Below are positions 36,762-44,593 of a stretch of DNA of 64,000 nt, piece by piece. Origin of the DNA: Anaerolineae bacterium. GTDB taxonomy: Bacteria; Chloroflexota; Anaerolineae; Aggregatilineales; J027. A program made the translations under genes and the position numbers. The stretch spans positions 1 through 64,000 of the forward strand of contig JAIOHL010000207.1 of the NCBI GenBank assembly GCA_019913005.1. Reading direction: 5' to 3'. Every line of letters starts with the position of its first letter. The first letter of the stretch is position 1. The notes under the pieces were generated by a model. That model searched no databases. It worked only from the letters and a program-made list of their open reading frames with translations, and had not been told where the DNA came from.

Positions 36762-36825
36762 GCGCCCAACCTGTTAAAATAGATGCGCTTATTGATACAT
36801 GCTGGGAGGAGATAATTTCTATCCA

Positions 36826-38841
36826 ATGAAACACTCTTTACGTCATCTTGTCGTATTCTTGTTGTGTTTTGCCATCTTGATTACCCCGGTTGTAATGACC
36901 AGCCCACGAGCGTTTTCACAAGACATTCCCCTGCTTAAGATCGGCGAGGTACAGGGAGCGGTAGCCGAAGATCAGGCCGAACCCCAAACCTTTAAATCGC
37001 CCTATAAAGATGACCGTGTACGGGTACAGGGTGTTGTCACCAATCTGATGATGATTGACACCAGTGGACGCCAGTTAAACCTATTTTTCTTGCAAGAGAC
37101 ACCCGAAAACAGTGACGGCGACCCGGATACCTCGGATGCCATTCAGGTCTTGATTGGCGCGAAAACTGCTTTTGATGATTACACGCCTGTGCTAGGCGAC
37201 ACCATCACAGTGGAGGGCAAAGTTGAAGAATTTTATGAGATGACCCGCCTGCGTGAAATTGCCCTCGTGAGTGTGGATGGCGCAGTCGAAGATTTGAATA
37301 CCGCCGTTCCCGCCATCGAATATAATCCAACAGGCGATGCACTGACAGTTGCCCAAATGAGCGAACGACTTGAATCTATGCGGGTATTTGTGCCGGAAAT
37401 GAGCTACACCATATCGGGCACGCATCTATATAGTTCCAGCAACGACAGCGAAGTGTATGTGATGCGTGGGGATGCGCCAGTGGCCCAACGTGAAAATCTT
37501 TACGAACGGCGTGTCTTCCGTGACACCGAAGCCTTAGACGATGGTTTAGATAATGATAACCCCTATCGTATCTCGGTAGAGGCCAACATCCTCAAGGGGT
37601 TGGCCTATGATTACAACGTCAATCTACCCCCCTACACCACTTATGAGGTTTTCACCAGTCCGCTCACTGGAAATTTGGTGTATGCCTTCGCTCGATACAC
37701 GCTACAAATTGATACCCTGCCAGAAGTGCAAGCCGGAGTCGCGCCCGACCAAAATACGCCTATTTTCCCCGCTGACCCTGCGACTCAATTTACCGTAGCG
37801 ACGTTTAATGTCGAAAATCTCTACGATTTTTATAATGATCCTTTTGACATCAACGACAATCCCGAAAATTTGGCGTTTAACTATGTGCCACGCACCCTTG
37901 ACGCCTATCAGACCCATATCACCAAATTGGCACGTCAAATTGTGGAAGCGATGCACTCGCCCGACACCATCGCCTTGCAAGAGGTCGAAGATCAGGATGT
38001 GTGTGTCAGCGGGTTGATCTATGGCACATGCAGCGGGGATGCCGATAATGCCAATGGTCTGCCCGATGTACTCGAAGATTTGAGTATCGAGATCGCGCGG
38101 CTGACCAACAGCGCCGTCATCTATACACCTGCGATTGACCGGGACAGCGCCGATACGCGTGGCATTACACAGGCATTCCTCTATCGCACTGACCGTGTAA
38201 CAATGCCGATTGCGCCAGAAGACCCCATTCTTGGCCCACGCCCAGACGACCCCAACGCCGATAAATTTCCGATGAATCAAGAGATCAGCAATCCAAAGTC
38301 CTTGAGCCGGATGTTTGCGATTGGCACGCCGCAATATGACCGTGCGCCGCTGGTAGGGCTGTTCTATATTTTCCCCGAAGGCATGACCTCACCAGAATCG
38401 CCCTATATCGAAGTCTACGTGTCGGCAAACCATTTCATTAGCAATCCCGATGCCAGCAATGTCCTGCGTGAAGGGCAAGCGGCCTATAACATCGAATTGG
38501 CACAAAGTGTGTTAGCGGTCAACCCTGATGCCTATTTTGTCATAGCAGGCGACCTCAACAACTACCCCTATTCGTCAGAAGTCAGCCTGTTTGATGCGGT
38601 GTTTAATAATCTATGGGATGAAATTCCCGCCGTATCACGCTACACCTATATCTATCAAGGTCAAACCCAAACCCTCGACCAGATTTTGGTGACACCCGCG
38701 CTGGCAAATTTATTGGCCTCCGTCGGTGTGGCGCACGTCAATTCAGACTATCCGTATCACTTTAGCGAAGATGCAACAAGCCTTTATGCGGTAACTGATC
38801 ACGACCCCGTTGTGGCAACCTTCAATTTCCCAACTGAGTAA
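36826..38841 (+). CDS. Secreted endonuclease/exonuclease/phosphatase-family protein
   Basis: The 671-residue protein starts at ATG 36826 with signal peptide MKHSLRHLVVFLLCFAILIT (cleavage near AFSQD). AGGAG is 14 bases upstream, longer than usual; an earlier ATG at 36799 would spoil the signal. Residues ~40-300 contain an OB-like domain as in extracellular nucleases of the ExeM/YhcR type (SPYKDDRVRVQGVVTNLMM, LGDTITVEGKVEEFYEMTRLRE). The EEP nuclease domain has FTVATFNVENLYDF near 322, the metal Glu in TIALQEVEDQD near 385, GDLNNYPYSSE near 573 and the catalytic VTDHDPVVATFN at the end. It probably degrades extracellular DNA or organic phosphates for phosphate gain. Confidence 0.87.
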   Translation: MKHSLRHLVVFLLCFAILITPVVMTSPRAFSQDIPLLKIGEVQGAVAEDQAEPQTFKSPYKDDRVRVQGVVTNLMMIDTSGRQLNLFFLQETPENSDGDPDTSDAIQVLIGAKTAFDDYTPVLGDTITVEGKVEEFYEMTRLREIALVSVDGAVEDLNTAVPAIEYNPTGDALTVAQMSERLESMRVFVPEMSYTISGTHLYSSSNDSEVYVMRGDAPVAQRENLYERRVFRDTEALDDGLDNDNPYRISVEANILKGLAYDYNVNLPPYTTYEVFTSPLTGNLVYAFARYTLQIDTLPEVQAGVAPDQNTPIFPADPATQFTVATFNVENLYDFYNDPFDINDNPENLAFNYVPRTLDAYQTHITKLARQIVEAMHSPDTIALQEVEDQDVCVSGLIYGTCSGDADNANGLPDVLEDLSIEIARLTNSAVIYTPAIDRDSADTRGITQAFLYRTDRVTMPIAPEDPILGPRPDDPNADKFPMNQEISNPKSLSRMFAIGTPQYDRAPLVGLFYIFPEGMTSPESPYIEVYVSANHFISNPDASNVLREGQAAYNIELAQSVLAVNPDAYFVIAGDLNNYPYSSEVSLFDAVFNNLWDEIPAVSRYTYIYQGQTQTLDQILVTPALANLLASVGVAHVNSDYPYHFSEDATSLYAVTDHDPVVATFNFPTE

Positions 38842-38889: not shown

Positions 38890-40446
38890 CTATTCATCAA
38901 GATCGGCCTGTAGCTCAAATTGGATTACAGACACTTCATTTACATCCTCGAAAAGTGGAATTCCAAGCGTATCCGACAGTAGATGCACGGGAAATTCAAA
39001 ACTGGTTGAAAGCTCTACCCTCCGTAGCGAATAGTCGTCGAGTGAAATATAGCGCCGCACCTGCAAGGCTTCATCGCTTGGAAACTCTGCCAATGTTGTC
39101 GCCAAAAAATCTACGACTTCACCGCTGGTCAACCCGTATGCTGCAAAATCTATTTCATTGAACAAGAGATAAACCAGAAATTCCGCCAATAGCCGACCAA
39201 CGAAGTCGTTGCTAAAAAGTGATTGGAGGGCAATCTCACTCGGAAAAACCGCACATGAATCAGTAGATTTTGTGTTGGCGATACGCGACAGGTTGCTATC
39301 GGCAGCAAGGAGACTTAGCCACAAGTCAGTAATCGCGTTTTCATCGTAATCAATAATCATCATCGCTATGCTACCGCCGGAGATGCTCAGGTTACTGGAG
39401 AAAATCCCAAGCAGCAGATTAGTCTCGGTTCTTGAATCCGAGGTGCAACAGACAAATGGGTTAAGGTTCAGACTGAGCATTTGTAAGTTTGGGAAAATGC
39501 TTCCAGCTTCCGTAGTATTCAAGAGGACTTTGAGGGGTAGCACATCTTTATCACGTAGTTGTTCCGCTAAAGAGTTCGCCTGTGTCTCACTGAAATCTCC
39601 GGAGATTTGCCCCTGCTCCCCAGTGATAGCGTTTTGAATGGTAGGAGCGGAAATAACCACTCCATCAAGCACAATTGCCAGCCGATCCCCAATGTGCTGT
39701 GCAGTGTAATCGGCGAAAATCTGTTGGCCTGTGGGAGTCAAAGTAAATGAAATCACCCAATTCCCGAAACTCGTTGCCTCAGCCCAAGTATCCGCAAGCT
39801 CATCCCCGGTCATAATACTATGAAACGGCGGGCCATCCGGTTGACCATTACTGCCGATTCCGGGATTTTCAGGAGGGCATAAGCCATTTAGATAACCGAG
39901 TGCAATTTGCACATCCGTCAAAATGCACGCCCCATCGGTCACATCCATCGGGGTCTCCGAAAAATCCACAAATTCCAGCAGAATGCCACCCCGCGCTGTC
40001 AAATCTGAGACGAACGATTCCGGCAAAGGTGATAGGGGAACCTCGACGGCAAGTTGATTTCCAATAATTTGTACCGACGCATTAGCGAATCCCAGAGTCG
40101 CTAAACGCCGCAATAAAATTTCGCGGGTCTCCTGTTTGGTTGTTTCCTCAACCCCCTCACCTAAGATGTCAAATAGCAACCGGGTCCCCTGCTTAACCTC
40201 AAAATGAGTGATGCCGTCGCCCTGTGCTGAGAATTCAATAGGATCAGGCAAATCAATCAAGCCACTGAAGGCGAAATCTTCAATAGCCAGCGTTGTCGTA
40301 TCCAACATTTTCGCGGCGTGGGCTTCGAGAATGGCGCAATCTTCGGGTGAGAGATCACAATCGCCGCCTTGTGCTTGGGCTGGTAAAAACCAATGGCTAC
40401 CCGCGATGATGCCAATTATCAGCAGGGGTATCACAAGCTTTTTCAT
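38890..40446 (-). CDS. Secreted SecD P1-domain-like protein without SecD membrane segments
   Basis: The protein has 518 residues from the ATG at 40446 (GGGAG nine bases before). A signal peptide (1-26, LPAQAQGG) leads to a soluble secreted protein. Residues ~80-310 follow the SecD periplasmic domain: GTRLLFDILGEG, TREILLRRLATLGFANASVQIIGNQLAVEVP, GGILLEFVDFSETP, then FTLTPTGQQIFADYT, GDRLAIVLDGVVISAPTIQ and QISGDFSETQANSLAEQLRDKDVLPLKV. All these appear in the same order in true SecD, but the five following membrane helices and the DxD-type segment are absent. The last ~200 residues are unrelated and unknown. It follows the ABC ATPase by 27 bases, last in the amino-acid transporter operon. 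Its role is unknown; a chaperone or anchoring job outside the cell is a guess. Confidence 0.8.
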   Translation of the reverse strand: MKKLVIPLLIIGIIAGSHWFLPAQAQGGDCDLSPEDCAILEAHAAKMLDTTTLAIEDFAFSGLIDLPDPIEFSAQGDGITHFEVKQGTRLLFDILGEGVEETTKQETREILLRRLATLGFANASVQIIGNQLAVEVPLSPLPESFVSDLTARGGILLEFVDFSETPMDVTDGACILTDVQIALGYLNGLCPPENPGIGSNGQPDGPPFHSIMTGDELADTWAEATSFGNWVISFTLTPTGQQIFADYTAQHIGDRLAIVLDGVVISAPTIQNAITGEQGQISGDFSETQANSLAEQLRDKDVLPLKVLLNTTEAGSIFPNLQMLSLNLNPFVCCTSDSRTETNLLLGIFSSNLSISGGSIAMMIIDYDENAITDLWLSLLAADSNLSRIANTKSTDSCAVFPSEIALQSLFSNDFVGRLLAEFLVYLLFNEIDFAAYGLTSGEVVDFLATTLAEFPSDEALQVRRYISLDDYSLRRVELSTSFEFPVHLLSDTLGIPLFEDVNEVSVIQFELQADLDE

Positions 40447-40473
40447 GATGATTGCTCCCACCCTTAAAAGGAA

Positions 40474-41247
40474 CTAGAGAATCTTGCTCAAGAACAATTT
40501 CGTCCGATCATGCTGGGGGTTATCAAACAGATTGTCAGGCGTGTTTTGCTCGACAATCATCCCGCTGTCCATAAAGATGGTGCGGTCAGAGGCGGCCCGC
40601 GCAAAGCCCATTTCGTGCGAGACAACCACCATCGTCATACCGCCGAATGCAAGGGCCATCATGACATCTAACACCTCGTTAATCATTTCAGGGTCAAGCG
40701 CTGATGTCGGTTCATCAAACAACATGATTTTGGGATCCATCGCCAACGCCCGTGCAATCGCCACACGCTGCTGCTGACCACCCGAAAGCTGACTGGGGTG
40801 GACATCGGCCTTGTCGGGAATCCCCACCCGCCCTAATAACTCCATCGCTTTTTCTTTGGAGGCAGTGTTGGCACGTTTTCGCACCACTCGTTGGGCCAGC
40901 ATGATATTTTCCAGTACGGTGAGATGGGGAAACAGATTAAAACTCTGGAACACCATGCCGACCTCGGCCCGGATGCGGTTGATATTTTTCGCGCCGTGCA
41001 GTGGGATGCCATCTACCACAATATCGCCTCGATCAAAAGTCTCAAGGCGATTAATGCAGCGCAGCAGGGTACTTTTACCCGAACCGCTTGGCCCGATAAC
41101 CGTCACCACCTCGCCCGTGCGAATATCTAGTGAGACATCACGCAGGGCATGAACTACTCCGCGTGGGGTGCGAAATTGCTTATGTATATTCCGAATCTGG
41201 ATAATTACATCGCCAATTTGTTTATCTTTTTTGGTTGGTGAAGTCAT
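40474..41247 (-). CDS. Polar amino-acid ABC transporter ATPase (GlnQ/ArtP type)
   Basis: The 257-residue ATPase powers amino-acid import. Walker A is GPSGSGKST (~53-61), Q-loop [17 protein letters not shown], signature [19 protein letters not shown], Walker [15 protein letters not shown], and the switch His is in [13 protein letters not shown]. The sequence matches the PAAT subfamily (GlnQ, HisP, ArtP) closely. It follows the permease gene by 12 bases and precedes the SecD-like gene, all on one transcript. The specific amino acid cannot be read from the ATPase. Confidence 0.94.
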
Positions 41248-41259
41248 GGCTAACCTTCC

Positions 41260-43293
41260 TCAGGGCAATCGGGAACGGCGTTCAACCGCACGCACCATCA
41301 GCGAGAGGCTTAACGTCATCACAATGTAAAAAATGGCGACGGCATTATAGGCCGGAATCGCTTGAAATGTGCGTGTACTATAGAGACGGCCCTGCTGCAA
41401 CAATTCGGGTAGGGCCAAAATTGCAATCAGCGAAGAATCTTTAAGCATCGCAATAAAATCATTGCCCAGTGGGGGTAACACAGTGCGAATCGCTTGGGGC
41501 AAAATGACATGCCGCATGGATTGGAAATAGGACATGCCCAAACTGCGGGCCGCCTCAGTTTGCCCTCTGGACACCGATTGAATCCCAGCGCGAAACACTT
41601 CGGCCAGAAACGCCCCATAACCCACCGCCAGACCGATTACGGCCTCGGCAAGGAAGGACTCGTTCCCCAAAACCTGTACTTCAATCTTGGTCAAGGTATC
41701 ATATATCGGATGGGTAATATCCCCAATAATGCCATCCGCATCACGCATTTGCGGGCTAACCACAAACGCAAAGTAGAGCAAAATTACCAACAATGGTACA
41801 CCACGCACCAATTCGACATAAAACGTCGAGAGATGATAGAAAATGGGATTGGAAGAAACACGAAATAGGCCCATCAACAAACCAATCAATAAGGCCAAAC
41901 TAAACGCCGACAGCGTGACGATAATGGTTAACCAAATCCCCGCATTACAACCGCGTGGGTTATTGAGAGCGCAGGTTTTATAGGTACGGGCAGTGGTCGA
42001 ATAAATATCACTTTTACGCAGCGTAACAATCTTTTCCGGCACGGTTTCAATCGTGACCCCACTGTCGTTATCCGCGATAATGCGTCCCGCCACCGTACTG
42101 TCATTCATCGTGATGGTGATTTCACACCCATCTGCGTCGGTTGACGTACAGTCGTCGGGGTTGCGTATTTCTTCTTGGATGTCGCGGCGCTCAAATTCGG
42201 TGGCCTCGGCATCGCCCTCCAAAATGATGTCATATTGGCTGGCAGATTCCGTGCTAAGTCGGCCTGAAAAAGTTTCACCGCTGACGGAGACAATTGTCCC
42301 TTCATAATCTTGGCAGCGCGGGTCTTCGGAGCGGTCACATGTCACTGTGCCAACTTCCATATTGATGATCCGACTGCGCGAAATCTGTACCGTCTGCTGC
42401 TCAACCGTTCGCACCTGAACTTCTTTGTCATCGTCCCCACGCAGTTCCGTCCCAATAATCTTTTCAGGATAGACTACATAAGTAACCGGGGTGGGTACAC
42501 AATCGGGTGTAGCATTGGGAGAGCACTCCAAAGTCCCTTCGCGGCGTGACAAGATACGATTGGGACGTATGGTGATCTCATAACCATCCTCTAAATGCCG
42601 AATCCGTGCATCGGCCCGTACCCGAATCCCCTGACGTAGGCTATATGGGCGATTAAACGTGACAATTTGGCCGCTGAGTGATGCACAGTCCGGCACAGCA
42701 ATAGCATCACAAGCCAACACCCCCTCTTCCTCGCTCAAAATGTCATTCGGCGCGACAACGGTCTGTACGCCATCCGCCAAAGTCACCCGAACGAGCGGCC
42801 CAACCACCCCCGTGCGTAACCCTTTCGTTTCCACCGTCCCATTCGGTGATTCACGGTTGGCGTTTTCAAAATCTTGATAAGTGACGACTACTCCGCGCTG
42901 GCTGAGGCATCCTTCTGGTGCGTCTTCAGGGCAGTTGATAACCCCGTCTTCTTGTGAAACGACCTGTTGAATTGGAACGGTCACGCTAGTGTCATCTAAC
43001 CCGCGTACCCGCACCGTTTCGCTGACCAGTAGAACTTCCGTCTTGACCTCGTAAACAACATCATAGAGTTCATCGGTGTTGACTTCAGGGCGATCTGCTA
43101 ACCAGTCCAGAATATCCCGATCATTTTGGTCATTCAACATATCAATGCCGACCCAAAAAATGAGCAGGAACAGCAACACAGCCCACCAAGGAACTCGGCG
43201 AGCCATACCGAGCAGCAAGTCGGGAACAGTCGGAGGTTCTTGAATTAACTCAGGGACGGGTGGCGGTACATTTGCCTTAGTGGATTGACCCAT
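41260..43293 (-). CDS. Amino-acid ABC permease with a large six-repeat C-x7-C insert
   Basis: The protein has 677 residues from the ATG at 43293 (AGGAAA five bases before); typical permeases of this type have 220-400. Residues 36-52 form one membrane helix. Residues ~53-450 form an extracytoplasmic region with six units, each carrying one C-x7-C pair: C121/129, C195/203, C257/265, C319/327, C382/390 and C441/449. Spacing between units is 74, 62, 62, 63 and 59 residues. Several units share a lead-in like 'I-L-S-x-x-E-G-x-L-x-C' and 'P-D-C' or 'P-x-C' at the close. After ~452 a normal permease begins: IWLTIIVTLSAFSLALLIGL, FYVELVRGVPLLVILLYFAF, and the EAA loop EAARSLGMSYFQSMRHVILPQ. Six disulfide-closed loops are likely. 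I know no such insert in GlnP or HisM. Confidence 0.9.
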   Translation of the reverse strand: MGQSTKANVPPPVPELIQEPPTVPDLLLGMARRVPWWAVLLFLLIFWVGIDMLNDQNDRDILDWLADRPEVNTDELYDVVYEVKTEVLLVSETVRVRGLDDTSVTVPIQQVVSQEDGVINCPEDAPEGCLSQRGVVVTYQDFENANRESPNGTVETKGLRTGVVGPLVRVTLADGVQTVVAPNDILSEEEGVLACDAIAVPDCASLSGQIVTFNRPYSLRQGIRVRADARIRHLEDGYEITIRPNRILSRREGTLECSPNATPDCVPTPVTYVVYPEKIIGTELRGDDDKEVQVRTVEQQTVQISRSRIINMEVGTVTCDRSEDPRCQDYEGTIVSVSGETFSGRLSTESASQYDIILEGDAEATEFERRDIQEEIRNPDDCTSTDADGCEITITMNDSTVAGRIIADNDSGVTIETVPEKIVTLRKSDIYSTTARTYKTCALNNPRGCNAGIWLTIIVTLSAFSLALLIGLLMGLFRVSSNPIFYHLSTFYVELVRGVPLLVILLYFAFVVSPQMRDADGIIGDITHPIYDTLTKIEVQVLGNESFLAEAVIGLAVGYGAFLAEVFRAGIQSVSRGQTEAARSLGMSYFQSMRHVILPQAIRTVLPPLGNDFIAMLKDSSLIAILALPELLQQGRLYSTRTFQAIPAYNAVAIFYIVMTLSLSLMVRAVERRSRLP

Positions 43294-43374: not shown

Positions 43375-43398
43375 CCAACTAGCGGAAAAACTAGTTGG
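43375..43398 (-). promoter_or_regulatory. Hairpin overlapping the stop codon of the binding-protein gene
   Basis: CCAACTAG and CTAGTTGG pair perfectly over eight positions with an eight-base loop. The stop codon TAG lies in the stem. With the second hairpin at 43330 it makes a double stem after the first gene, a layout that often protects the upstream message and gives more binding protein than permease. Confidence 0.45.
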
Positions 43399-44578
43399 CT
43401 TCGGCTGTCGCTTCGGGAGCAACTTCAGAAGCAGTTTCGCAAAAGAGCCAGTCTTCACCTTCCAGCACAAAATGAGCGGGTTCGGGGAAGATGTCACTAG
43501 CCGCGATTTCAGTACCTTCGACTAGGAGTGAGCCACCAACAGCCACTTCAGCGGCTTCGCCATCAATTGTGACCGTATATTCAAGGTCAGACAGGTCAAT
43601 CGTCAGACCAGTATATTGAGCCAAATCCTCGGCGCTTGGCACTTGACCATCAGCGCAGGAAACTTCCGCAATGGCTTCGGCATCACCCGCGAAGGTAGCC
43701 GTCAAAACGTAGTTGAGCACGGAGGCTGGGTCAGAGGTATCGAGCAGCACTACCCCCGTACCACCTTCTTGGAAGTCTTCGCTCGGCAGGGTGCCAAAAT
43801 AGCTTTCAAAAATGGTGGCATAGGTGCCATCCGCGATAACATTCACCAAAGAAGCATTGACCGCATCCAACAATTCTGGGAAATCGGGTCGAATGGCAAT
43901 GCCGTAGAATTCATCCGTCAGAGTTTCGCCAACCGTCGTTAGGTTTAGATCGGGGTTATTGGCAATGATGTCGGCGGAGGTGGGAGCATCTACAATCACC
44001 GCGTCAATTTCTTCATTGCCCAACGCTTGGAAGGCGAGGGTCGCTTCGTCAAAACGCACGACTTCAACGCCGGGGATTTCGGTAGCAAAGGTATCACCCG
44101 TTGTTCCGGTTTGCACGCCAACGCGCAGACCCGCCAGATCATCGGGGGTGGCAACGTTTTCGGCATCAGCAGCACGCACGGAAATGATTTGACCCGCGAG
44201 GAAATACGGATTGGAAAAGTCTACCTCTTCTTCACGTTCGGGGGTAATGGTCGCAGCCGAGATGACCGCATCAAATTCGCCGCTGGCAAGTGCCGTGAAA
44301 ATGCCGTCCCACTTGGTATTGACCCATTCAATTTCAAAACCAGCATCGGCGGCGATGGCGTCCATCAATTCAACATCGAAGCCGATAATATTGTCTTCTG
44401 CATCTACCGATTCAAAAGGCGGATATTCGGCATTTGTCCCGACTTTAATGGTTTGGCCTTCCACCTGTGAACGGGTGGCACGTTCCGCCGTCGGTTGGGA
44501 AGTGGCAGCGACTGGCAGAGCCATCACCAGCAGCAAGGCAACCGTTAGCAAGATCAAAAAATTCTTTCCGTAACGCAT
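43391..44578 (-). CDS. Amino-acid ABC transporter binding protein with C-terminal extension
   Basis: The protein has 395 residues from the ATG at 44578 (AGGAG nine bases before; a TTG two codons earlier is not needed). A signal peptide covers 1-25 (LLLVMALPVAA) without a lipobox Cys. Residues ~42-265 are SBP_bac_3: VGTNAEYPPFESVD, IIGFDVELMDAIAADAG, WDGIFTALASGEFDAVISAATITPEREEEVDFS and IDAVIVDAPTSADII. Residues ~275-395 form an extra domain with two Cys (C308, C380) and a short Ala/Glu-rich end. Typical members stop near 265-280. It is the first gene of the operon whose permease carries the cysteine repeats, so the added domain may contact that insert. Confidence 0.93.
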   Translation of the reverse strand: MRYGKNFLILLTVALLLVMALPVAATSQPTAERATRSQVEGQTIKVGTNAEYPPFESVDAEDNIIGFDVELMDAIAADAGFEIEWVNTKWDGIFTALASGEFDAVISAATITPEREEEVDFSNPYFLAGQIISVRAADAENVATPDDLAGLRVGVQTGTTGDTFATEIPGVEVVRFDEATLAFQALGNEEIDAVIVDAPTSADIIANNPDLNLTTVGETLTDEFYGIAIRPDFPELLDAVNASLVNVIADGTYATIFESYFGTLPSEDFQEGGTGVVLLDTSDPASVLNYVLTATFAGDAEAIAEVSCADGQVPSAEDLAQYTGLTIDLSDLEYTVTIDGEAAEVAVGGSLLVEGTEIAASDIFPEPAHFVLEGEDWLFCETASEVAPEATAEAN

Positions 44579-44593
44579 TTTCAAATTCTCCTC

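Follow-up and report, generated by a model that had tools for sequence, protein, structure and literature searches.

A tandem array of predicted Sm/Hfq-like barrels within an amino-acid ABC importer permease of an Anaerolineae bacterium

The permease gene and its operon

The window analyzed here is a stretch of 64,000 nucleotides from an Anaerolineae bacterium (contig JAIOHL010000207.1 of assembly GCA_019913005.1, positions 1 to 64,000), and this report concerns a permease gene on its minus strand (41260 to 43293) whose open reading frame translates to 677 amino acids. Judged by its sequence, the product is an amino-acid ATP-binding cassette (ABC) importer permease with a GlnP/HisM-type core. 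This type I importer core (residues 451 to 677; 41263 to 41943, minus strand) was matched by HEQRo_perm_3TM (TIGR01726) at 51.9 bits, against a curated cutoff of 42.2, and by BPD_transp_1 (PF00528) at 98.5 bits, against a cutoff of 26.4. The operon also encodes a substrate-binding protein (43391 to 44584, minus strand; SBP_bac_3, E = 4e-40), which has no lipobox and carries a C-terminal extension with two cysteines, and an ATPase that family-library matches assign to the GlnQ type (40474 to 41247, minus strand). This is the gene content of an amino-acid ABC importer, and 41260 to 43293 is the only permease gene within it.

The unusual feature of this permease is an insert of residues 53 to 450, which lies, as the sequence-only reading had proposed, between the first membrane helix and the core. 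The helix was assigned from the sequence to residues 36 to 52 (43138 to 43188, minus strand) and appears at residues 36 to 54 in a poor full-length model. It is predicted to have its N terminus inside the cell, from the Arg-Arg that precedes it. On this basis, and from the known topology of a HEQRo-type core, the insert is predicted to be extracytoplasmic. It is acidic, with 72 Asp and Glu residues against 39 Lys and Arg residues. Searches of Pfam and NCBIfam returned nothing significant for residues 53 to 450, and a profile of the repeated unit described below gave only noise against PDB sequences, in agreement with the earlier suggestion of an uncatalogued domain. Pfam also found no SBP_bac_3 domain in the insert, which separates this protein from permeases with fused binding domains of the GlnPQ type.

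Tandem units joined by cysteine pairs

All 12 cysteines of the protein belong to six exact C-x7-C pairs, which were confirmed in the translation at residues 121/129, 195/203, 257/265, 319/327, 382/390, and 441/449; the rest of the chain contains none. When 12 cysteines were placed at random over the 398-residue insert in 200,000 shuffles, no shuffle gave more than four such pairs. Cutting the insert behind each pair yields units of 59 to 74 residues. Unit profiles built from nine family members were compared with one another, and 40 column shuffles in which the cysteines were held fixed served as the control. Units 1 to 4 matched each other with E values of 1e-6 to 6e-9 and unit 5 matched unit 6 with an E value of 2e-4, and none of the shuffles did as well in either case; the match of unit 4 to unit 6 is not secure, as 1 of 40 shuffles scored better. 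By this profile evidence the units are true tandem repeats. The repetition noted in the sequence-only reading is thus real, but the repeating element is a folded domain of about 60 residues between the cysteine pairs rather than the cysteine loop, and C-x7-C is the loop between domains.

All six units are on the minus strand. Unit 1 (42901 to 43062) was recovered by the unit profile with an E value of 1.5e-11, the unit itself being part of that profile, and its C121-x7-C129 pair occupies 42907 to 42933. Units 2 to 5 were likewise placed by unit-profile matches, and their pairs were read from the sequence: unit 2 (42679 to 42894) with C195-x7-C203 (42685 to 42711), unit 3 (42496 to 42672) with C257-x7-C265 (42499 to 42525), unit 4 (42307 to 42486) with C319-x7-C327 (42313 to 42339), and unit 5 (42118 to 42303) with C382-x7-C390 (42124 to 42150). 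The membrane-proximal unit 6 (41938 to 42126) is the one for which a Sm-like barrel was modeled, and its C441-ALNNPRG-C449 (41947 to 41973), immediately ahead of the core, is the most conserved of the cysteine pairs. The unit profile matched no second gene in the rest of the genome. The pairs likely form disulfides, since VKOR and DsbA-like proteins are encoded in the genome (2 matches to VKOR and 11 to Thioredoxin_4, candidates for oxidative folding); conservation of the cysteines pair by pair gives indirect support.

A small-barrel fold for the repeated unit

Unit 6 was modeled from a stacked alignment of 27 units taken from the window and from loci found in the genome scan. The model has five strands, the last two of which are connected by a short turn. 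In the barrel its predicted local distance difference test (pLDDT) value is about 80; confidence in the cysteine loop is low. Comparison with PDB structures (Foldseek and VIA-align) placed three kinds of protein at the top: Hfq, lipoproteins of the DUF903 family, and the cytochrome Kustd1711, through its Hfq-like nose domain. Superposition of Hfq on the model gave template modeling (TM) scores of 0.67 to 0.69, with a root mean square deviation of 1.0 to 1.3 Å at the closest. The model therefore has what defines the Sm/Hfq-like small barrel, namely, five strands, a 3-10 turn before strand 5, and superposition on Hfq. The better subthreshold Pfam signals of the units also came from barrels of the Sm and SH3 types (Hfq_1, the Myosin_N SH3, BPL_C, and RNase P p29). 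That each unit folds as a Sm/Hfq-like (SH3-like) small β-barrel is well supported by the modeling, and a chain of such predicted barrels with C-x7-C at the junctions replaces the chain of disulfide-closed loops imagined previously. We consider it highly probable that the insert in this permease has the architecture of a barrel array.

Several results weigh against this picture. The structural match scores are weak (best Foldseek E value of 0.025 and VIA Z scores below 8), and the full-length AlphaFold2 model, built with seven sequences, is poor (pLDDT of 37.5), so that the arrangement of the barrels cannot be read from it. Weak values are usual for folds this small; for this reason we claim a fold class and not homology. 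Sequence homology to Hfq or LSM proteins was not found among the 27 units, as the best Hfq_1 match had an E value of 0.0045 and such matches were seen in only 2 of them.

Distribution, unit number, and conservation

The array was found in 38 of 154 genomes of one Anaerolineae order, always as one gene per genome with an open reading frame. A class-wide draw of 396 genomes gave seven matches, all from that order, and in a phylum-wide draw of 400 genomes the unit profile matched the window's own genome and no other. In the genome scan, every record with a relative of the insert was named Chloroflexi, Anaerolineae, or kin, all other matches being to the core only; viral contigs yielded no relative. 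All insert-bearing permeases fall on one side of a branch of the permease tree (support of 100/99). By profile, the window's family has six units, family f4 has four, and family f5 has about three, with one unit in G300 (family f6) and about ten in G298 (family f60); an insert-free permease tested with the same profile had none. The form with one unit is sister to the form with ten (support of 96/83), and unit number thus changes fast on a single permease lineage. The three-unit permeases (L008, L159, L160, L175, and L177) have an additional hydrophobic insertion inside the core, which the window protein lacks.

Within the window's family, all 12 cysteines were kept in 9 of 9 sequences, the window and eight relatives, with a single change of spacing (x8 in L021); the sequence-only reading would have been undermined by poorly conserved cysteines, and they proved to be invariant. 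Between genera of this family, identity is 38 to 46% in the insert and 67 to 70% in the core. Within the genus, omega is about 0.06 in the insert and 0.02 to 0.045 in the core, and the insert is under strong purifying selection. Outside the window's family, cysteines were gained and lost in pairs, but the last pair, CA(L/I)(N/D)N-x-x-(G/A)C, was found in every relative examined. Unit 6 and this CA-NN--GC motif are the only part of the insert that is always retained, and the outer units hold most of the variation.

Binding proteins and neighboring genes

The C-terminal extension of the window's binding protein is about 110 residues long; similar extensions are present in two relatives (G322 and G330) and absent in a third (G318). 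Binding proteins beside insert permeases of other families are elaborated in different ways. In G315 (L173 69-3749), the operon's binding protein is a lipoprotein of 1,226 residues that combines SBP_bac_3 with two stretches of Bmp (PnrA-like) sequence and acidic linkers; in G298, the binding protein has tandem SBP_bac_3 domains. Single polypeptides with such tandem domains adjoin insert permeases at L161 2-886 and L045 1-2061. A fasciclin domain lies ahead of the binding domain in L043 (by Pfam) and, by similarity, in L045. In the four-unit lineage, a segment of the insert resembles lobe 2 of the lineage's own binding protein, which is of family 3 (E = 7.5e-6; 0 of 100 shuffles were as good, the best reaching 5e-3). 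This segment is situated before the last unit (L042 to L046, L155, and L153), and the junction is then shortened to C-x3-C.

The lipobox is missing from the binding proteins of the six-unit family and is present beside the one-, three-, and four-unit permeases, but it is also missing in some insert-free systems. The idea that the array replaces the lipid anchor of the binding protein was therefore rejected as a general rule.

Next to the operon, on the minus strand, is a gene for a secreted protein of 523 residues with a SecDF P1-head domain (38890 to 40461; E = 8e-27). The sequence-only reading had taken this SecD-like protein for a possible partner, and we dropped it as such, since the gene was seen beside the operon only within the window's genus (the window and L041); three relatives from the family (G322, G318, and G330) lack it there. 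Farther along, on the plus strand, 36799 to 38841 encodes a probable secreted protein of 680 residues of the endonuclease/exonuclease/phosphatase family.

Possible roles of the array

We propose that the array serves the substrate-binding protein as a module for docking and reach. Six tandem small barrels would stand outside the membrane, and a C-x7-C disulfide probably closes each of the short loops that join them. The barrel nearest the membrane, which carries the near-invariant CA-NN--GC motif, would sit over the permease entrance and receive the binding protein, while the outer barrels would form an arch that enlarges the capture surface and keeps the binding protein close to the permease. 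The array would then do the job of MalF P2 with an unrelated fold. This proposal is based on the location of the insert, the constant membrane-proximal unit, the parallel elaboration of the binding proteins, and the precedents of MalF P2 and GlnPQ (PMC3150292, PMC8025302), and we give a probability of roughly one-half to the array receiving and retaining the binding protein near the permease. Against it, sister branches differ in unit number, from 1 to about 10, so that no fixed docking geometry is needed. Since the array begins and ends at the membrane, an arch or a ring is more natural than a stalk. The six linked barrels might even associate through their edges, with strand 4 against strand 5 in the manner of Hfq, and so make a ring or arch over the permease. 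Such a pseudo-Hfq ring, made of one chain and lying outside the cytoplasm, would serve as a collar for the binding protein; we regard this as a long shot, and the variable unit number counts against a fixed ring of this kind.

The principal alternative is that the transporter is anchored through the array to the cell wall, the S-layer, or a surface glycan, or that the array is a spacer or filter over the pore, with no contact between the array and the binding protein. Copy number that varies widely inside one permease clade is typical of surface spacer repeats, and the acidity of the insert and the concentration of variation in the outer units, with unit 6 constant, would suit such a role. However, a chain fixed to the membrane at its two ends cannot be a straight stalk, purifying selection on the insert is strong, and the Pfam search matched no wall-binding domain; we consider this alternative rather unlikely, though it is the most serious competitor to docking. 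A regulatory or redox sensor, in which disulfides opening under reducing conditions alter transport, would explain the invariance of the cysteine pairs within the family and would fit the VKOR and DsbA-like proteins of the genome. Six nearly equivalent pairs look structural, however, and in L023 and L044 a pair present in close relatives is missing while the neighboring barrel units are intact, which makes a sensor improbable. The regular cysteine spacing would suit metal binding, an option that the sequence-only reading had also raised, but no evidence for it was found: the pairs have no conserved His or extra Cys nearby, one junction in one lineage is C-x3-C, and an extracytoplasmic setting with oxidative folding favors disulfides, so we judge it very improbable. 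Least credible is that the insert has no function and represents a neutral, decaying expansion, for although unit number is unstable between sister branches, the selection test disfavors it (omega of about 0.06 over the insert, with cysteines invariant across genera), and 38 genomes each have one copy in an open frame.

The type of transporter is known; what is new is the extracytoplasmic array, which is missing from the family libraries searched and for which no description was found in the literature searched. One of the best-studied classes of transporters would gain an undescribed domain array, and the Sm-like fold would be seen to serve, in tandem and punctuated by disulfides, as an extracellular module with a copy number that shifts between close lineages. 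The natural series of 0, 1, 3, 4, 6, and about 10 units on one core offers a ready test of how extracytoplasmic importer parts shape the capture and delivery of substrate.

Comparison with known systems

In its core (residues 451 to 677) and in its operon with SBP_bac_3 and GlnQ-type proteins, the window permease is like the HEQRo-type permeases (GlnP and HisM/HisQ; TIGR01726, PF00528), whereas the models of that type have no 400-residue domain array between the first helix and the core. In GlnPQ from Lactococcus lactis, the binding domains are N-terminal. They are fused to the permease, at a chain position matching that of the insert (PMC8025302). The insert here consists instead of predicted small barrels, and the binding protein comes from a separate gene. 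In the maltose importer, MalF P2, which has an immunoglobulin-like fold, is likewise a large region of a type I permease on the extracytoplasmic side, but it is a single domain without repeats, whereas the array is repeated, lies at another position in the chain, and has another fold. Contact between MalF P2 and the binding protein is described in papers referenced in PMC3150292.

The unit fold is like that of Hfq and other Sm-like proteins, as far as the unit 6 model goes, but the permease units are acidic, covalently linked, and predicted to lie outside the membrane, and they have no significant sequence match to Hfq. Where Hfq has its Y/F-K-H motif, the permease units carry LRKSDI, FERRDI, and ISRSRI. 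The nose domain of Kustd1711 and the DUF903/YgdR lipoproteins are also Hfq-like barrels outside the cytoplasm. These are single domains with no cysteine-pair junctions and no transporter, in contrast to the permease units. The nose domain is an Hfq-like insertion with negative surface charge, according to the authors of its structure, and is thus both inserted in another domain and acidic, as the permease units are acidic (PMC11791136).
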